42,320 nt of DNA from Marine Group II euryarchaeote MED-G34. Its GTDB lineage: Archaea; Thermoplasmatota; Poseidoniia; Poseidoniales; Thalassarchaeaceae. Position 1 is the stretch's first letter, and each line of letters starts with the position of its first letter. A program made the translations under genes and the position numbers. Shown piece by piece: positions 2,366 through 24,884 of the stretch. Where the stretch lies: contig NTJT01000006.1 of NCBI GenBank assembly GCA_002457605.1, positions 1-42,320 of the forward strand. Direction: 5' to 3'. The notes below the pieces were generated by a model that saw nothing but the letters and a program-made list of their open reading frames with translations, did not search any database and was not told the DNA's origin.

Positions 2366-3592
2366 ATGAGCAGTGAGCCAGTCCACATACTAGGTGCAGG
2401 TCTCTCGGGCCTCGCTGCGGCTACCTATCTCGCGAATGCGGGACTTGAGGTGCATGTACACGAAATTCGATCAGATAGTGGGGCTCGCTTCGACGGTGAT
2501 TTCCAAGGCATAGAGAACTGGACCAGTGACTCCGACTTCTTCGATGAGATACGAGAATGGGGCTTCGACCCAGAGGAGTTCAAGTCTGATGCGTTCGATG
2601 TGATTGATCTCGTCCACCCTGACGACGAAATAACTCAACCTCGAACATCAGGACTCGCTTTTCGTGTAGTAGAGCGTGGGACTGCTGAACATTGCATCGA
2701 CCAGGGCTTCAAGCGGATGGCACTCGATGCGGGTGCAGAAATCCACTACGATACCCGTAGAGACCCCAATGACTGTCATATCATCGCCGCCGGCCCGAAG
2801 GAGTCCAGTGCAGTGGCATTCGGGGAGATTTTTCACACCGACCATCCCAATCACGTCACCTTCCAGCTGAATGACAAACTGGCCCCAGGGGCCTATTCCT
2901 ATCTCATCATCATCGATGGCATAGGTCTGATTTGCACCTGTCTGTGGCGCCAACAAAAGAAAACTTCGCGCTACCTCAACGAGACCATCGCATGGTACGA
3001 ACAGCACTACAACCTGAATCGAAGACCGATTAAGAGGGTCGGTGGAAAGGGTGACTTCTCGCTGCCTGACAAGTACGTACACGAGGGTCGCTACTATGTC
3101 GGTGAGGCAGGGGGCCTACAGGACTTCATGTGGGGCTTCGGGATGCGTTACGCGGTTACTAGCGGCGTTATGGCCGCCAAGGCTGTCCTAGGTGAGTGTG
3201 ACTACGAGAGCGAGGTGAGGGGGCGTCTCGTTCCCCTTGTCAGGGCTAGCGCCGTCAACCGTTTCCTGATGAACAGAGTTGGCAATCGAGGTTTCAAGAT
3301 GGTAGCCAACCACTGGATGCGCGACCAGCGCAAGAAGGGAGACGGTCTCGTGTTCATGCGCTGGGTGTACAAGCCTGGACTAATTCGGAGAATGCTGTGG
3401 CCAGTAGTCAGGCTCGGTATGTTGAGGCGTAAACGGCTCGCAGACGGCAGGATGGTTAGTCGCATGCCATTTAGGAAGGCGCTTTCTAGAGATGTCTGGG
3501 AACCAAGTGCCAGAGGCGAAGAAATTGCAGAACATTGGGACCTCGTTCGCAAGGGCGGGGGGAAGACGTCTTTTGTCGAGAACGACGCCTAA
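2366..3592 (+). CDS. Geranylgeranyl reductase-like FAD oxidoreductase
   Basis: A 408-residue flavoprotein starting with HILGAGLSGLAAATYLANAG, the FAD-binding motif. The segment YYVGEAGGLQDFMWGFGMRYAVTSGVMAA (about residues 240-270) corresponds to the family signature GDAAGxxxPxxGxGIxxAxxSGxxAA. Known members saturate the isoprenoid chains of archaeal lipids or of quinones, often with ferredoxin as reductant, but many members are uncharacterised. The basic, hydrophobic C-terminal part (about 300-360) may attach to the membrane. It lies between the ferredoxin/flavoprotein pair and the acyl-CoA/oxygenase genes, all on the plus strand. The stop codon lies in the loop of a hairpin (3584-3599), and the next gene seems to have its own TATA-like box. 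The specific substrate cannot be read from the sequence. Confidence 0.65.
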   Translation: MSSEPVHILGAGLSGLAAATYLANAGLEVHVHEIRSDSGARFDGDFQGIENWTSDSDFFDEIREWGFDPEEFKSDAFDVIDLVHPDDEITQPRTSGLAFRVVERGTAEHCIDQGFKRMALDAGAEIHYDTRRDPNDCHIIAAGPKESSAVAFGEIFHTDHPNHVTFQLNDKLAPGAYSYLIIIDGIGLICTCLWRQQKKTSRYLNETIAWYEQHYNLNRRPIKRVGGKGDFSLPDKYVHEGRYYVGEAGGLQDFMWGFGMRYAVTSGVMAAKAVLGECDYESEVRGRLVPLVRASAVNRFLMNRVGNRGFKMVANHWMRDQRKKGDGLVFMRWVYKPGLIRRMLWPVVRLGMLRRKRLADGRMVSRMPFRKALSRDVWEPSARGEEIAEHWDLVRKGGGKTSFVENDA

Positions 3593-3599
3593 AGGCGTC
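3584..3599 (+). terminator. Hairpin over the stop codon, possible terminator
   Basis: GACGCC, a TAAA loop and GGCGTC form a perfect 6-bp stem. The TAA stop of the flavoprotein gene is in the loop. It is followed by a pyrimidine-rich stretch (CCTCTAACTCC) rather than a clear T run, so its action as terminator is uncertain. Confidence 0.4.
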
Positions 3600-8289: not shown

Positions 8290-9303
8290 ATGACAGATTC
8301 ACCAATCAGCCATCATGTGGGAGGTTCAGAAGAGAAGGCTGCCGAAGATGGTGGCTCTCTTGAGCAGAAAGCGCAGATGGAGCAGGCCTACCAACAGATG
8401 CAACGCAAGTTGAGAATAACCAAACTAGATGAGGATATCAAGCACAAGGTCATGGTGCTATCTGGCAAGGGAGGTGTGGGCAAGTCCACCGTCGCAACGG
8501 GGCTCGCATTGTGCCTCGCGCGTAGAGGCATGAGAGTCGGTTTGATGGACATCGACATCACCGGCCCTAATGTGCCAAAGATGCTTGGCATAGAGGCAGC
8601 TGAGCTGAATGTCGAAGACGGTCAGATACATCCCGCACCTGGGCCTCACGGGCTGAAGGTAATCTCGATGGCTTTCCTGCTCGAGGATCCTGACAAGCCG
8701 GTCATATGGAGGGGGCCAATCAAGCTCGGGGCTATTCAGCAGTTCATTGGTGACGTAGCTTGGGGTGAGCTCGACGCCCTCATCATCGACTTCCCTCCTG
8801 GAACCAGCGACGAGCCCCTTACAGTCAGTCAGAATCTACCAGGAATTGACGGCGTGGTAATCGTCACTACACCTCAGGAGGTGGCGCTGCTCGATAGTCG
8901 CAAGTCGATCAACTTCGCCAAGACGCTGTCTGTCCCTGTGCTGGGCGTGGTCGAGAACATGAGTGGTTACACTATCCGAGGCACAGCCGAGCCTAGCACC
9001 GAGGTCTCAGTAATGGGTCCAGCAGGCGTACCTGTGCAGGCGTTGGCTGATGAAGCAGGTGACTGGTCGCTGACTCTGGATGTCTTCAAGTCCGGAGGTG
9101 GTGCCTCCGCTGCCACAGAACTGGATGTGCCATTCCTCGGCTCCCTGCCTTTCGATCCTGGGATAGTTAGAGGGGGCGATGATGGGGTACATCGGATTAT
9201 TGCTGAGCCCGACGGCGATACAGCGAGCTCGTTCGACTCAATAGTGGACAACATTCTGACCACCCTCGAAGAGGGCTCCGGGCCTCAGGTGCGCATTACT
9301 TGA
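8290..9303 (+). CDS. mrp: Mrp/NBP35-family P-loop ATPase lacking the Fe-S cysteines
   Basis: A 337-residue ATPase. LSGKGGVGKSTVATGLA (about residues 57-73) is the deviant Walker A motif, DIDITGPNVPKMLG follows, and IIDFPPGTSDEPLTV is the Walker B/switch region typical of Mrp/ApbC/NBP35. These proteins normally carry and transfer [4Fe-4S] clusters using a C-terminal CxxC that follows VENMSxxxC. Here the text reads VVENMSGYTIRGTAEPSTE, and the protein has a single cysteine (in ALCLARRG, away from the usual site). Both the CxxC and the N-terminal four-cysteine motif of Nbp35 are missing. The stretch that replaces them is longer than usual and Gly/Ala-rich. The N-terminal 45 residues are probably helical. 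Cluster transfer by the standard mechanism is therefore doubtful. Confidence 0.88.
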   Translation: MTDSPISHHVGGSEEKAAEDGGSLEQKAQMEQAYQQMQRKLRITKLDEDIKHKVMVLSGKGGVGKSTVATGLALCLARRGMRVGLMDIDITGPNVPKMLGIEAAELNVEDGQIHPAPGPHGLKVISMAFLLEDPDKPVIWRGPIKLGAIQQFIGDVAWGELDALIIDFPPGTSDEPLTVSQNLPGIDGVVIVTTPQEVALLDSRKSINFAKTLSVPVLGVVENMSGYTIRGTAEPSTEVSVMGPAGVPVQALADEAGDWSLTLDVFKSGGGASAATELDVPFLGSLPFDPGIVRGGDDGVHRIIAEPDGDTASSFDSIVDNILTTLEEGSGPQVRIT

Positions 9304-18843: not shown

Positions 18844-21800
18844 TCACCACTCGGTATCTGATTTCCGCAAGGAAATCGCGAAGACTGTGATCCCGACAAT
18901 CAGCAAGAGGCCCACGGACACAAAAACGAGGGTTGTCGAATTGTCACTGAACCAGTTACCCCCTCCTCCACCTGCGCCCAACTTCTCAAGTTCGAGGATG
19001 TGAGTCTGTTCGATAGTCGGCGTAGTGGACAAGTAGGTATCTGTAGCTCGTATTTGGATGGTAATGTTGCCCTCCGGCAGACTCGCCCGGGCATCGAACT
19101 GCAAAGTGTAGACGCCGTCACCTGATACTCGATCTCCACCGGTGCCGTCGTCGACCATTAACAGCCAGATTTCGGAGCTGCCAATTGGAGCCAGCCTTCC
19201 TATCTTGGCCTGCACTGACGAGATTCCGTCCGGGTCATCGATACTTGCTTCGAGAGAATGAGAGATGGGGTCGCCACTGTGTGGAACATGAATCTCCTCA
19301 GCTGTCTCTCCGGATCTGAGCAAACTTACCGAGGTAACTGATGGTGCCTCGTTCTCGATGGTTAGCATCGGCGCATCCACCGGGAAGCCGTTGAGATGAG
19401 TGTGGACAGCCATCACGGTCTCGCCATCACCGTCTGTGATTCTGACTGGGATGGAACGTTCACCGGGAGAAATCCCATCTGGTACTATGAAATTTCCACT
19501 CCACACTCCATCTGACTCTGAAAGTGCGCTGAGCGCGCCTCCTGCACTCAGTAGATCAATACCAACTGAGTCAATGCCATGCCCGTCCAGCGCGGTGATA
19601 CTGACATCGACTGTCTCGCCTCGCCTAGCGGTATCAGGCATGAAATCTAATGAAATCATCCTCGGCGCGGCATTGATGATCTCGATGGATGTCTGCTCCT
19701 CAACTGTGACCCAGAAGTCCTCAATGAATACTGATGAGTTCATCATTCCATGTTTGAGGCCATCGTAGGTAATCAGCGCAGTCCAGATGTCATCGTGGAT
19801 GGTGTGGTCGCCCTGTAGACCAGAGTCAGAGAGTTCGATAGTGCCAAGTCCTAACTCCGACAGGTCGATGGTGACAACTGTGACATCTGTATCGAAGTCG
19901 TATACTAGGGCCTCTAAGTGGGCTGAGTCTCCCTCTGTAAGCAGCCTACCTTCACGGAAGCCTATCGATACCAGTGAAGGTGGGGTGTTCTCTTCCTCGG
20001 AAACTACTGAGGGCGACAGCACTCTGTCAACAAGTTGGTGCTCGACGAAGGCAATGCTGTCACCCGAGTCATTCTGACCAATTTCGATCTCCACCCACCG
20101 GTGAACCTCGTTGAGCAGGCCTGCGAGAGGCCCCTCATTGACGATACTGCCCGAAGCGTGGCTGTTCCCCCCATAGCCACCTAACCACTCGGCGACTTCG
20201 ACTATGTGGCCATCCATCTCTCGCTCGACGATGGCCGTCACCTCAATACTCAGTATCATCGCGTCGTTACCAACCAGTGAGAAACGGTCACCGACGACGA
20301 CGATCTCTGGTGAAGCGCCGGTCTCCCTAGAAATGTGGTTCTCGAACACGACCTCGGGTTTAGGGGGAACAGCCTGCATGATTATTGGAGAGACTTCTGG
20401 GTACTCGTTGGTGACCGTACCGTTGTCCTCTATGTACTGATAACGTATGGTGCGGTTTTCCCAGTCAGTCTGTGGGACGATGAACTCGTAAGTCAGGTTG
20501 TGCTCGGCCTCCCACTCTTCCGTGATTGGCCCAATCGGCGTAGCAGAGACGTTGAACCAGAACTCATTCTCAATTTTGTCGACCTCGAACATCGCCCCAG
20601 TCGCGTTCTCCTGCGTGCCGGAATCGACTATTCTCCGGATGAAACCGAAACTTCCCTCGGCATCGCCATCGTAAGTGCCATCGACTCGTATGGTCTCTGC
20701 GACGGTCTCACCGCCCTGGGTTTCAAAGTGGATGATTGGGATAGTGCCATTGACCTCGACCTCGAAGAGCTCGTCCTCGATGACGAAACCAAATTCCCCC
20801 CCTCCGAGAATCAGGAAGTGCTGCTCTTCCCTCGTGCCGTCCTCCCAGCGCTCGAGTATCCTGAACTCATCGAGGTCGAAGGAGAACTGCTCTCTGTCCG
20901 CTCCATTGAGGCGTAGAGTGGCGTTGGCCTCAATCTGTAAATGCTGTAGGCGTCTGCGATCGTCCTCATCCCAAGTCTCGTAGTAAAACGATGACAGTTG
21001 ACCGAATCCTCCTCCGCTGCTGTTGTTATCGCCACCGCCGAAGGAGAGCCATCCTGTGCCATCAATGAGAAAGCGCTCAGTGAGTTCTCCCTCGTCCCAT
21101 GAACGTAGTACGTAGACGTCATTGACCTGGACATCGGCTGAGAAGCCATTGCTTTCTCCGTTCTCACCCTCCTCGGTGGTGTTGAGGAAGAGTGAACCAT
21201 TGCCGCTCATCTCGAAATCCTGTCGGAGAAGTTCAACACCGTCGTAGGTCTCGTTCAGCCAGATTCGGTCGAGATTGAGCTCGAGGACAAGTCCCTCGGT
21301 GCCGTTCATCGAATCCACAGTCAGGGTCCCGTTGCCCAGTTCGTTAGACTCGAGGATACTGTCTGTCCTCTTCTGCCAGCCCCGGCCCTCAAAGTCGATT
21401 CCATTGCCCTGCTCAGCACCCTCCATTGACCAAGTCGTCTCTCTGGTTATCTCGTGATCAGCCACGGGCTGATTCCAGTTGGTGATGGCGAGGTCCCTAG
21501 AGCAGGACGTCTCGCCGGTGACGACAGAAATTGAAATTGAGTCGCCGAACACAGGTTCGGTAGAGAGGGTGATGTCAACCTCCCCTCCGGCGCTCAGCAC
21601 CGTGGTGTTGGATGTGTCAGCTATCTGCTCACCGTCCCTGTGATGCTGAACTTCAACGCTGAGGGCGGTCGGAGAACTACCATTGATGAATGGTGGATCG
21701 AAGACTACGAGGTAGCGGTGCAGGACGTCGTAGGTCATGTTCCATCCACCGTCCCAATGATCCTCGACGTCCCAGTCAACAAGTATCATGCAGGTCGTAG

Positions 21801-21888
21801 GCTCGTCGCCCTCTCCAACTACCATTGCAGCAGGGATGCTGAACAGGAGAATGGTTAGAACTGCAAGGGTCGCTATCGCGCGAGGCAC
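18844..21888 (-). CDS. Large exported surface protein with Ig/PKD-like repeats and C-terminal anchor
   Basis: A protein of about 1014 residues. The frame has no early ATG. From the GTG at 21888 it begins MPRAIATLAVLTILLFSIPA, a good signal peptide, and a TATA-like TTCATATCT lies 23-31 bases upstream; TTGs at 21909 and 21921 are alternatives. The body is beta-rich and acidic with many Asn-glycosylation sequons in the first half. Later repeats (MISLDFMPDTARRGETVDVSI; TSVSLLRSGETAE; VQAKIGRLAPIGSSEIWLLM; GGDRVSGDGVYTLQFDA) resemble cell-surface Ig-like modules. It ends with a glycine-rich linker, a membrane helix (TLVFVSVGLLLIVGITVFAIS) and a short basic tail. It probably sits on the outer cell surface, as S-layer-associated or adhesive material. 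No enzymatic domain was recognised. Confidence 0.8.
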   Translation of the reverse strand: MPRAIATLAVLTILLFSIPAAMVVGEGDEPTTCMILVDWDVEDHWDGGWNMTYDVLHRYLVVFDPPFINGSSPTALSVEVQHHRDGEQIADTSNTTVLSAGGEVDITLSTEPVFGDSISISVVTGETSCSRDLAITNWNQPVADHEITRETTWSMEGAEQGNGIDFEGRGWQKRTDSILESNELGNGTLTVDSMNGTEGLVLELNLDRIWLNETYDGVELLRQDFEMSGNGSLFLNTTEEGENGESNGFSADVQVNDVYVLRSWDEGELTERFLIDGTGWLSFGGGDNNSSGGGFGQLSSFYYETWDEDDRRRLQHLQIEANATLRLNGADREQFSFDLDEFRILERWEDGTREEQHFLILGGGEFGFVIEDELFEVEVNGTIPIIHFETQGGETVAETIRVDGTYDGDAEGSFGFIRRIVDSGTQENATGAMFEVDKIENEFWFNVSATPIGPITEEWEAEHNLTYEFIVPQTDWENRTIRYQYIEDNGTVTNEYPEVSPIIMQAVPPKPEVVFENHISRETGASPEIVVVGDRFSLVGNDAMILSIEVTAIVEREMDGHIVEVAEWLGGYGGNSHASGSIVNEGPLAGLLNEVHRWVEIEIGQNDSGDSIAFVEHQLVDRVLSPSVVSEEENTPPSLVSIGFREGRLLTEGDSAHLEALVYDFDTDVTVVTIDLSELGLGTIELSDSGLQGDHTIHDDIWTALITYDGLKHGMMNSSVFIEDFWVTVEEQTSIEIINAAPRMISLDFMPDTARRGETVDVSITALDGHGIDSVGIDLLSAGGALSALSESDGVWSGNFIVPDGISPGERSIPVRITDGDGETVMAVHTHLNGFPVDAPMLTIENEAPSVTSVSLLRSGETAEEIHVPHSGDPISHSLEASIDDPDGISSVQAKIGRLAPIGSSEIWLLMVDDGTGGDRVSGDGVYTLQFDARASLPEGNITIQIRATDTYLSTTPTIEQTHILELEKLGAGGGGGNWFSDNSTTLVFVSVGLLLIVGITVFAISLRKSDTEW

Positions 21889-21901
21889 GGAACGTGCCTC
21901 G
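21881..21901. promoter_or_regulatory. Perfect 9-bp palindrome over the start of the surface protein gene
   Basis: CGAGGCACG, a 3-base loop and CGTGCCTCG. On the minus strand the GTG start (21888) is at the second base of the downstream arm, and the expected transcription start is at the hairpin. It may be an operator or an mRNA structure that hides the start codon. Confidence 0.5.
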
Positions 21902-21936
21902 ACCTTCAAGATATGAACCAATGGGGGCGTTGTTAC

Positions 21937-22350
21937 TCAGAACAGAGGCTCTTCGTAGTCGTCATCCTCTCCTGAACGCTCGCGCCACAGGGACACAGGG
22001 ACGTCTTCGTAGATTCCAGCGTACGGGTCCTCTTCCTCACTGGAGTCCTCGTTCTCCTCCCATAGGCGAGCCAGTTCCTCAGCGTTGGACTTGAACTTCC
22101 AGTAGTGGATTCTCCACTCCCTGCCGTCCCACAGCGTTGTCTCCTCAGACTCAGTGGTTAGAAGGTCATAGTCCTGCAGTTGGTAGAACAGGTTGCGGTC
22201 GGTTGGCTCTAAGGCATTGTCAATGATACGGTTCGAGAAACCAAAGAACCCCAGCGCGTGCTCCGCTATCGATTCGGCTACAACAGTCTCCATGTCAATG
22301 TCGACCTTGTGCCGTATGGCCTGTGTGAGTTGTGCTAGCGTCAGACCCAT
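21937..22350 (-). CDS. Conserved archaeal small protein (DUF6015-like, tentative)
   Basis: A 137-residue soluble protein. The N-terminal half (LTLAQLTQAIRHKVDIDMETVVAESIAEHALGFFGFSNRIIDNALEPTDRNLFYQLQDYDLLTT) looks like a helical domain ending in a turn as in winged-helix or SAM-like folds. RIHYWKFK is a short strand. The last 35 residues are very acidic. The pattern of a helical domain, then DRNLFYxLxxxxLLTTExExT, then WRIHYW resembles a protein family seen in Thermoplasmata (DUF6015, from memory). Its function is unknown. A minus-strand TATA-like CATATTA lies about 22-28 bases before the ATG. It diverges from the agmatinase gene and is upstream of the surface-protein gene on the same strand. 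Confidence 0.75.
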   Translation of the reverse strand: MGLTLAQLTQAIRHKVDIDMETVVAESIAEHALGFFGFSNRIIDNALEPTDRNLFYQLQDYDLLTTESEETTLWDGREWRIHYWKFKSNAEELARLWEENEDSSEEEDPYAGIYEDVPVSLWRERSGEDDDYEEPLF

Positions 22351-22472
22351 CGCATACGCCCCCGGTGGCCTAATATGGAAGGCCGCGCTATTTCAACAGT
22401 CCTTCGCACAGCCTCGTTTTTCGCCATTCTACTCTCCGAAGTGGTTAATCTGCTCGCTACTTTCGCAATGCC
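22351..22472. promoter_or_regulatory. Divergent promoter region upstream of agmatinase
   Basis: These 122 bases hold a minus-strand TATA-like CATATTA (about 22378-22370) for the small protein and a plus-strand GGTTAATC (22443-22450), 23-30 bases before the agmatinase ATG at 22473. Nothing else was seen. Confidence 0.4.
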
Positions 22473-23390
22473 ATGGAAGGCCCCAATAGACTGAGGTTTC
22501 TAGGGCTAGAGGAGTCTGACTCAGGCCCTTGGGACGTGGTGATACTGCCGGTGCCATATGAGATGACGACGAGTTGGGGCGAGGGCACCGAGAAGGGACC
22601 CAAAGCTTGCATAGAAGCGAGTTCCCAAGTGGAGCTCTATGACTCGATACTTCCTCATGACTTGCCGTGCGGACTCAATATCCATACCGCTGAGGCCTGG
22701 GGCTCAGAAGCCGGCACCCTGTTAGAGCAGTTGGATTCGATTCGCGACTACGCTGTAAAGTGGCTCGACGGATCTCAGTTCCCAATCTTCCTCGGAGGTG
22801 AGCACGGCATCCTGCCTCCACTGATGCAAGCCGCCGCTGGACATCCTGAGATAGAAGGGGACCTAGGTCGTCTGACACTAGTACAGATCGATGCCCACGC
22901 CGACCTGAGAGACGAGTTGGGAGGAGAGCGCTTCTCGCACGGCACCGCTGTACGCCGGGCTCTCGATGAGGGTGTTGGAAGGGTATTACAGATTGGCACA
23001 CGGACGTTGTCTCGTGAGGAGGCGACTTTTGCCGAGTCCGACGAGCGGGTCGAGACATGGTATGCCCGAGAATTCATGGGTGTATGTGATGGTCAAGCAG
23101 GATGGGCTGCGCTCATGGATAGGATTACTCAAATCGAGGGTCCCGTCTGGTTGACCTTCGATGTCGATGGACTAGACGGTTCGCTTGTTCCAGACACCGG
23201 CACTCCAGTTCCCGGAGGATTGAGTCATTGGGCCGCTGTTGAGATCATCGAGGGACTATTCGCAAGTGGTGCGGAGGTTATTGGGGCCGATGTGAACGAA
23301 ATCGTCCCCGGAGAGGATCGTTTGACCCAATTCAATGCAGCACTCATCGCCACCAAGATATTGGCCGCTCACATCGCAAGCCGTGGTTAG
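22473..23390 (+). CDS. speB: Agmatinase / arginase-family ureohydrolase
   Basis: A 305-residue metal-dependent ureohydrolase. The manganese ligands are in FLGGEHGI, IDAHADLRD and FDVDGLDGS, and FSHGTAVRRALDEG is the family-specific substrate loop. Near the end, ADVNEIVPGED matches the conserved (D/E)xxExxP segment. The family includes agmatinase, arginase, guanidinobutyrase and formiminoglutamase; the length, the N-terminal YEMTTSWGEGTEKGP region and archaeal setting favour agmatinase, which gives putrescine and urea. It would serve polyamine synthesis from arginine. No arginine decarboxylase is nearby. The gene is followed 60 bases later by a secreted carboxypeptidase gene on the same strand. 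Confidence 0.9.
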   Translation: MEGPNRLRFLGLEESDSGPWDVVILPVPYEMTTSWGEGTEKGPKACIEASSQVELYDSILPHDLPCGLNIHTAEAWGSEAGTLLEQLDSIRDYAVKWLDGSQFPIFLGGEHGILPPLMQAAAGHPEIEGDLGRLTLVQIDAHADLRDELGGERFSHGTAVRRALDEGVGRVLQIGTRTLSREEATFAESDERVETWYAREFMGVCDGQAGWAALMDRITQIEGPVWLTFDVDGLDGSLVPDTGTPVPGGLSHWAAVEIIEGLFASGAEVIGADVNEIVPGEDRLTQFNAALIATKILAAHIASRG

Positions 23391-23440
23391 TAGTCAATAG
23401 GCTCACAGAAAGTGACAACGATTGTAGGTGATGGCCCTCT

Positions 23441-23461
23441 CAGCGGCGCTATGCGCCGCTG
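23441..23461 (+). promoter_or_regulatory. Perfect 9-bp palindrome over the start of the M14 peptidase gene
   Basis: CAGCGGCGC, a TAT loop and GCGCCGCTG form a perfect hairpin whose loop contains the first two bases of the ATG at 23451. It has the same stem and loop lengths as the one at 21881-21901. Confidence 0.5.
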
Positions 23462-24884
23462 TGCAGCAATCGTCCTCGCATCCGTGATGCTCTCAGTATC
23501 GGCAGCGCCGGTTGCAACAGCACAGGTTGGTCAGCCGGACATCGTTCAGGAGCACTGGTATCATTCCTATGCAACACTGACCTTGGACGTCAATGCATGG
23601 GCGGATGATTATCCTGAGATCGTCAATCTGCTCGTCGTGGGTCAAACGGAGATGGGGAGAAATCTCTGGATGTTGCAGATCTCAGATTGGAGTCAGGAAA
23701 TCAAGCCCGATGGGACTGCCAAAGAGGTGGTTTACATCGACGGTGGGCACCATGGAAATGAGCACCTGGGCACGGAGCTTGCTTTCCTGGTTGCCGAGTA
23801 TTACATCGAGGGATGGGCAGATGGCGAGCAAGAGGTACTCGATGTATTGGCTACTACGGAATTGCATATCCTCATCATGCTGAATGCGGATGGCAATGAC
23901 TTCGATACAAGATGGAATGTCAATCAAGTGGACCTGAATAGAAACTACGACCACTACTGGAACACATGCCCTACAACTCAGCCTGGAAGTTCTGCATTCA
24001 GTGAGTCTGAAACTCGTTTCAACTCGATTTACATGAACGAGGTCGTGCCTCATGCCGACCTATACATCACAATGCACACGGGAGTCTGGATCATGCTCTA
24101 CCCCTGGGGTAAATGGCCAGAGCAGCCCTCAGACTGGGAGATGTTCCATTTCATCAGAGATGATGTGCATGCCAACATATCCGACATTCCGATTCAGAAT
24201 GCAAATCAAGGCCTCTACCCGAACTGTGGAACCAGCCGGGACTACGGGTACGGCGTGATGGGGTATCCCACATTCACATTCGAGACTGACGACGAGCAGT
24301 GGTTGCTGGGAACAGTGGAGGCACTATCAGAAAGGCTCGGTGAGGAGCTTGATGTGATGAATTACCTAATCGAGAATGTGTGGTACTGGAGGGCACGTCT
24401 TGTTGTCGATTCCCTAGAGGTGGAAGATGGGAAAGTGCATCTTGGCGTTTCTAACCTAGGACACGCGAGCACGTCGAATGCCACACTGCTGTACTTCGAG
24501 GACGAAGATTCGCTGGAATTTTGGCTCCCTGGGTCGGATGAACCGACCGAAGTGACAGGGGCGATGGATATACAGGAGAGGGAATCAGACTTCAACTTCT
24601 CCACCCCAGGATACGGCTTCGCAGTCAATGCCACAAATAGCACCGTCACAACACTCGATTTTACAGGCGCTCCAATTTCCAGCGGCGGAGGAATTTGGGT
24701 CCTGTACTACCAGAAGAGAGTGGTAGATTCCTCGATGTGGGTCGGTGAAGCGGTCAACGAGAGCGTCGTGAAAAGTAAGGACGGTGTACTACAGGGCCTT
24801 CTTCCGGCCCCTTCGATGCTGCTTGTCTTCGTCGCCTTCGCTCTAGCGGCGATAAATAGACAAAATCGCAAGTTTGAGCAATAA
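23451..24884 (+). CDS. Secreted M14 zinc carboxypeptidase
   Basis: A 477-residue exported peptidase. From the ATG at 23451 it begins MRRCAAIVLASVMLSVSAAP, a signal peptide ending near ATAQ; a GTG at 23412 would add 13 residues. The catalytic domain has GGHHGNEHLG (HxxE zinc ligands), LNADGNDFDTRWNVNQVDLNRNYDHYW (substrate-binding NR pair), ITMHTGV (third zinc ligand) and YPTFTFETDDEQ (catalytic glutamate). A C-terminal beta domain (about 335-440) follows. The end, GLLPAPSMLLVFVAFALAAINRQNRK, is a short motif, a membrane helix and a basic tail, as in sortase-like anchor signals; the motif itself is not one I can name with confidence. It removes C-terminal residues from external peptides. It fits a protein-degrading lifestyle together with the next gene. 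Confidence 0.9.
   Translation: MRRCAAIVLASVMLSVSAAPVATAQVGQPDIVQEHWYHSYATLTLDVNAWADDYPEIVNLLVVGQTEMGRNLWMLQISDWSQEIKPDGTAKEVVYIDGGHHGNEHLGTELAFLVAEYYIEGWADGEQEVLDVLATTELHILIMLNADGNDFDTRWNVNQVDLNRNYDHYWNTCPTTQPGSSAFSESETRFNSIYMNEVVPHADLYITMHTGVWIMLYPWGKWPEQPSDWEMFHFIRDDVHANISDIPIQNANQGLYPNCGTSRDYGYGVMGYPTFTFETDDEQWLLGTVEALSERLGEELDVMNYLIENVWYWRARLVVDSLEVEDGKVHLGVSNLGHASTSNATLLYFEDEDSLEFWLPGSDEPTEVTGAMDIQERESDFNFSTPGYGFAVNATNSTVTTLDFTGAPISSGGGIWVLYYQKRVVDSSMWVGEAVNESVVKSKDGVLQGLLPAPSMLLVFVAFALAAINRQNRKFEQ

Follow-up and report, generated by a model that had tools for sequence, protein, structure and literature searches.

In the window, by which we mean the whole 42,320-nucleotide stretch of DNA analysed here, two perfect inverted repeats cover the start codons of two genes for exported proteins and are probably gene-control elements. 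The best reading, ranked first with a probability of somewhat over four in ten, is that each acts as an RNA stem masking the start codon solely on transcripts that read through from the gene upstream. The host genome (1.03 Mb, 66% complete) belongs to Marine Group IIb (Ca. Thalassarchaeaceae), and its nearest named relatives are Ca. Thalassarchaeum and Thalassarchaeaceae of the same group.

Both palindromes, each with a 9-bp stem and a 3-nt loop, exist as the sequence-only reading had described them, and no other stem of at least 9 bp with such a loop occurs in the window. On the minus strand, CGAGGCACG-GAA-CGTGCCTCG (21881..21901; 5' arm 21901-21893, loop 21892-21890, 3' arm 21889-21881) holds within its 3' arm the GTG start codon (21886..21888) of a large surface protein without a Pfam family (18844..21888). 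On the plus strand, CAGCGGCGC-TAT-GCGCCGCTG (23441..23461; 5' arm 23441-23449, loop 23450-23452, 3' arm 23453-23461) carries the ATG (23451..23453) of an M14 zinc carboxypeptidase gene (PF00246, 23451..24884), which spans the loop and the first base of the 3' arm. The signal peptides of both proteins were judged by eye. PMC9723583 lists carboxypeptidase A among the strongly transcribed peptidases in both Marine Group II families. Two further genes sit between the surface-protein and M14 genes, each co-directional with its neighbour: a DUF6015 gene (PF19479, 21937..22350, minus strand), which stops 48 nt ahead of the GTG, and an arginase/agmatinase-family gene (PF00491, 22473..23390, plus strand), which stops 60 nt ahead of the ATG. 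As had been noted, the palindromes share their geometry and differ in sequence, with no half-site common to both.

The reading frame of the surface protein opens at TTG 21921, but two relatives (L042, L052) have in-frame stops between the equivalent of this codon and the palindrome, and the start is therefore placed at GTG 21888. In a similar way, M14 relatives with a centre one base shorter have a stop in the upstream frame, so that ATG 23451 is taken as the M14 start. It follows that the 5' arm is non-coding in both genes. That the true starts might lie far from the palindromes, which the sequence-only reading had named as an argument against itself, is not what we found: they lie inside both.

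By number, the palindromes are not very unusual. An order-1 simulation gives 0.15 palindromes of this geometry per window, in agreement with the earlier estimate of about 0.16, and at least two occur in 5 of 200 simulations. In the congeners there are 14 such palindromes in 765,614 bases, that is 0.77 per window length, and four of the 14 are the same two elements. Number alone is thus weak evidence, and the case rests on position and conservation. The earlier claim that two in one window are a sign of selection is accordingly weak as far as the number goes and strong with regard to position and conservation. A third start hairpin in the window, at a NUBPL-like gene (8290-9303), was rejected as a further case as it is not conserved in relatives.

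Among relatives, a stem of at least 7 bp is present near the start in 36 of 100 distinct M14 start regions and in 14 of 50 surface-protein start regions (protein identity at least 45%). At the same loci, the starts of the adjacent genes have such a stem in 0/92 (DUF6015) and 0/94 (agmatinase) cases, and further control starts in 4/82 (M17) and 2/57 (Hsp70). Within the genus, the surface stem of at least 7 bp is found in all 12 congeners with a complete start (L031-L042), a count outside which G005 falls because its surface gene is cut off. The exact M14 arms occur at the M14 gene in 10 of 13 genus genomes, the other three being G005, without an M14 match, and G011 and G012, with a divergent M14. 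In the latter two (L084 and L080, respectively) this divergent gene occupies the same place and has a different, 5-bp hairpin upstream of its ATG. Outside the genus, the M14 form is present in g4, g7, g10 and g11 and the surface form, with a stem of at least 7 bp, in two g11 genomes; in genus g9, most rows of g6 and g11 and the more distantly related groups, the palindromes are decayed or absent. Loss of pairing in homologues that keep the protein, which had been named as contrary evidence, is thus seen in part of the family, for example in g9 and the g6/g11 group, and not within most of the genus. An exact-arm search of 118 genomes found the M14 pattern in 36 and the surface pattern in 18, almost always as a single site per genome at the gene, with a few scattered matches elsewhere. 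The surface core GAGGCAC/GTGCCTC is identical between proteins that are only 44-48% identical.

The M14 stem is conserved in its pairing beyond its sequence. In 73 M14 rows a start codon stands at the aligned position; of these, 22 have all eight pairs and 36 at least seven. The compensatory changes that the sequence-only reading had proposed to look for are seen at pairs 3, 4 and 6: G-C has become T-A at pair 3 in L107 and L090 and A-T at pair 6 in L124 and L137, while pairs 4 and 6 have changed jointly in g9, with two other pairs disrupted. In L107/L090, L124 and L137 the changes in the coding arm are synonymous and matched by the non-coding arm. Watson-Crick cells number 373 in 61 rows of one clade (of 71; ten lacking ATG or GTG at the aligned start were dropped), a value reached by none of 2000 shuffles (mean 326, maximum 348), which ignore relatedness and in which, as in the data, the better of two spacings was taken. 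For the 39 variant rows alone, the count is 197 paired cells out of 312, compared with a shuffle mean of 165, and 0 of 5000 shuffles reach 197. The number of M14 pairs with a double change, three, is not beyond that of the shuffles (427/2000 reach 3). For the surface stem, conservation of pairing beyond sequence is given by one changed pair (L041, L042) alone, the core being otherwise invariant. U.G pairs occur in the M14 stems of L102 and L137, and one-sided mismatches in those of L104 and L148. The M14 centre is 4 or 5 bases long and has switched from one length to the other at least six times on a quickly built tree with 26 weak forks, the arms being retained; the surface spacing is likewise 4 or 5, with a 1-bp change in L037 and L040. 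Such flips between 4 and 5 are normal for a loop.

These data bear on the view that the palindromes arose by chance, are functionless and persist through common descent and the coding constraint on the 3' arm. Two stems per window are only mildly unusual in the simulations, as this view would have it, but the non-coding arm is conserved and covaries with the coding one and neighbouring starts are free of such stems. On the strength of the neighbour-gene controls and the covariation we reject chance or coding constraint, to which we would give hardly any credence. Selection, as originally suggested, is supported for the pairing by conservation, compensatory changes and the neighbour-gene controls.

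An unbiased motif search in 184 upstream regions of first genes yielded VTTSAW, which peaks sharply at -31/-30 relative to the ATG (24 regions; log-likelihood gain 118, versus 33 with shuffled input), as expected for the TATA-like box of leaderless genes, which this motif may represent. A promoter-like motif lies about 30 nt ahead of the start codon in both genes: GGTTCATATC at 21910..21919 (minus strand; -31 to -22 from the start codon, pwm 8.2) for the surface gene and CGATTGTAGG at 23419..23428 (plus strand; -32 to -23 from the ATG, pwm 5.1) for the M14 gene. Its distance to the start is also kept in surface orthologues without the palindrome. Because of this motif at -30, the own mRNA of each gene is predicted to be leaderless, that is, to begin at the start codon and to lack the 5' arm. 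Masking of the start codon would therefore be possible solely on transcripts entering from the upstream gene. Our full-text literature search found no paper on leaderless genes or transcription starts in Marine Group II.

In the mechanism that we propose, each palindrome would be a cis element whose pairing over the start codon is maintained. Read-through RNA from the agmatinase gene into the M14 gene, or from the DUF6015 gene into the surface gene, would carry both arms and fold, placing the start codon in the stem or loop such that a ribosome could not start there. RNA made from the gene's own promoter would start with the start codon itself, be free of the 5' arm and be translated. The element would in this way tie expression to that promoter and keep read-through silent. 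In support of the RNA stem, the 41-nt folds of the two start regions are stable (-19.5 and -18.1 kcal/mol), and the predicted leaderless 5' ends of both genes fold no better than shuffled sequences. No Rfam covariance model matched the part of the window from 21000 to 24500 at E up to 1.

The close same-strand neighbour upstream also counts for the RNA stem. A same-strand gene ends 23-79 nt upstream in every one of the 36 M14 rows that have a stem of at least 7 bp, and in all 14 stem-bearing surface rows DUF6015 ends at most 100 nt upstream, although the ORF caller placed one of these (L037) behind an opposite-strand frame. The 62 M14 rows without a stem comprise 53 with a same-strand and nine with an opposite-strand neighbour, at gaps of up to 455 nt; the latter nine fall in one lineage and therefore represent about one event. 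Since so many stemless rows have a same-strand neighbour as well, the association is weak and follows the tree. Genus g9, in which the same-strand neighbour is only 28 nt away and the M14 palindrome has nevertheless decayed, counts against the stem. The short same-strand gaps could also be taken to mean that the hairpin serves the upstream gene, as a 3'-end or intercistronic structure stabilizing or ending the agmatinase or DUF6015 transcript, all the more as palindromes of at least 8 bp are frequent 0-80 nt after stop codons, too. We consider this improbable: the palindrome centre is fixed relative to the downstream start (+0.5 to +1 for M14, -2 to -2.5 for the surface gene), whereas the upstream stop lies anywhere from 23 to 79 nt away.

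A close rival to the masking stem, ranked second and a real if tentative possibility, is that the dyad, lying over the transcription start of a leaderless promoter, is the binding site of a dimeric transcription factor that acts as a repressor. The start codon would then be part of the dyad solely because start codon and transcription start coincide. Archaeal repressors have dyad operators near the transcription start. The perfect 20-21-bp dyads between promoter element and first codons are similar to these, and both genes have the leaderless-type -30 element that also produces the genus-wide motif peak. As judged from its position relative to the -30 motif, the dyad overlaps the region of the promoter and the putative transcription start. 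Furthermore, a dyad of the same size is conserved at the thermosome gene in 10/10 orthologues, with its core again at a second promoter. In genus g4 the M6-peptidase dyad likewise favours the operator: it covers the promoter element, a position from which no start could be masked, and thus also speaks against the RNA stem. Finally, the sequence of the arms is more strongly conserved than a stem of purely structural role would require, which suits a protein that reads sequence, and the one-sided mismatches in L104 and L148 likewise count against the stem. The conservation of the M14 arms by column was computed solely on the 36 rows with at least 7/8 pairs and is partly so by construction as the rows were preselected for pairing.

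Other features distinguish the two dyads from such operators. The spacing of the half-sites is not fixed but varies by 1 bp, at least six times for M14 and in L037 and L040 for the surface gene; the M14 arms change symmetrically in several lineages; and the dyads are not common to other promoters. By exact arms, no second promoter with the same half-sites was found for either element in the 118 genomes beyond the scattered matches, and the surface arms with up to two mismatches, searched for in 13 genomes, occur at counts like those of a reversed-pattern control. A single regulator shared by both palindromes of the window is rejected, there being no common half-site and no further sites in these searches. 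Taken together, leaderless promoters, conserved arm sequences and the precedent of the thermosome dyad speak for DNA binding, whereas spacer change, covariation, wobble pairs, the single site per genome and the case of PepC (see below) favour RNA structure. Were the operator view true, repressor site, transcription start and start codon would coincide in a compact promoter layout.

The masking stem has a counterpart in phage T4 late genes. For I-TevI, segB, soc and e, PMC2988022 describes a stable stem that masks the initiation site solely on transcripts from upstream promoters, while the gene's own promoter yields RNA without part of the stem. The M14 and surface stems likewise include the translation initiation site, and our working model resembles that description in that RNA from the own promoter is predicted to lack the 5' arm and masking would be confined to upstream transcripts. 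In contrast to the T4 stems, which mask a Shine-Dalgarno site, the M14 and surface genes are without a visible one and have the start codon itself in the stem or loop. They are, moreover, archaeal and predicted to be leaderless.

A similar hairpin, TGGCTCACC-NNA-GGTGAGCCA, stands directly before the ATG of a cytosolic-looking aminopeptidase gene that we take to be PepC-like (TGGCTCACC-AGA-GGTGAGCCA in the host genome, L316). It covers the Shine-Dalgarno sequence AGGTGA in 5/5 genus genomes. A stem of at least 7 bp is present in 8 of 30 rows, including 5/5 in the genus, and in two g11 rows it is kept with a U.G pair (seen in L332/L336). The start was located in seven of these eight rows, the remaining one being a mislocated match, and all seven have a same-strand gene that stops 40-56 nt upstream. 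The PepC hairpin is thus like the M14 and surface elements in its 8-10-bp stem, its 3-nt loop, its position just before or over the start and the same-strand gene close upstream, and differs in that its 3' arm holds the Shine-Dalgarno sequence that the other two genes lack.

The link with protein export suggested by the sequence-only reading was not borne out. Conserved start-region palindromes occur also at genes that do not look exported, among them the PepC-like gene and genes that we likewise take to be ParA-like and thermosome. When the starts of the genus were scanned for stems, as had been proposed, palindromes outside the two genes proved no commoner than chance at leaderless-type starts: an 809-kb sample held about 12 of at least 7 bp, compared with about 11 by chance, the latter figure being a hand estimate from the density of the sample (290 palindromes, 833 candidate starts). 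On both grounds we reject a signal-peptide rule. The matches at L214:15375, L227:12266 and L216:2156 were set aside, another in-frame start seeming likelier, as was that at L088:8542, which is internal. Stems of at least 8 bp are rarer inside genes than after stops or upstream of starts, where 24 fall in the four 20-nt bins from -80 to 0; an intergenic excess therefore exists.

Start-proximal palindromes in the genus seem to serve more than one purpose. The thermosome dyad GGCGACCC-CTA-GGGTCGCC lies between promoter element and ATG, is invariant in all ten orthologues (L260 and nine others), and its core recurs upstream of an exported-protein gene in 8 of 18 loci read. With its fixed spacing it resembles a classical shared operator in look and may mark a two-site regulon. 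The M6-peptidase gene (PF05547) has a palindrome over the ATG in 3/5 congeners and, in genus g4, one over the promoter element in 4/5 rows. These four (L234, L235, L237, L238) have a 9-10-bp palindrome centred on the promoter element that differs from the ATG palindrome of the congeners. The ParA-like ATPase gene has a start palindrome in four stretches from four genomes. Rather doubtful, in our estimation, is the wider proposal that a set of genes in Marine Group IIb, several peptidases among them, is insulated by stems whose 5' arm lies between own promoter and start, such that read-through RNA would be silent and leaderless mRNA translated. If the read-through reading is true, it would reveal how a compact genome with leaderless genes prevents read-through out of one gene from expressing its neighbour. 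It would also provide a sequence signature by which controlled peptidase genes could be recognized in an ocean archaeon that is very abundant.

Two minor observations concern the neighbourhood and the window at large. The core of DUF6015 is almost invariant throughout Marine Group II, and its predicted fold is winged-helix-like (mean pLDDT 63; best fold match the winged helix of TFIIE-alpha, E 2.5e-3). A role of DUF6015 as a regulator was set aside, the model being of low confidence and the match too weak. At 3584-3599 of the window, a gene that ends at 3592 has its stop codon in the loop of the hairpin GACGCC-TAAA-GGCGTC. In four congeners the corresponding loop contains TGA or TAG and is closed by a stem of 7 bp, and a stem of at least 6 bp is present in 6/6 of these regions.
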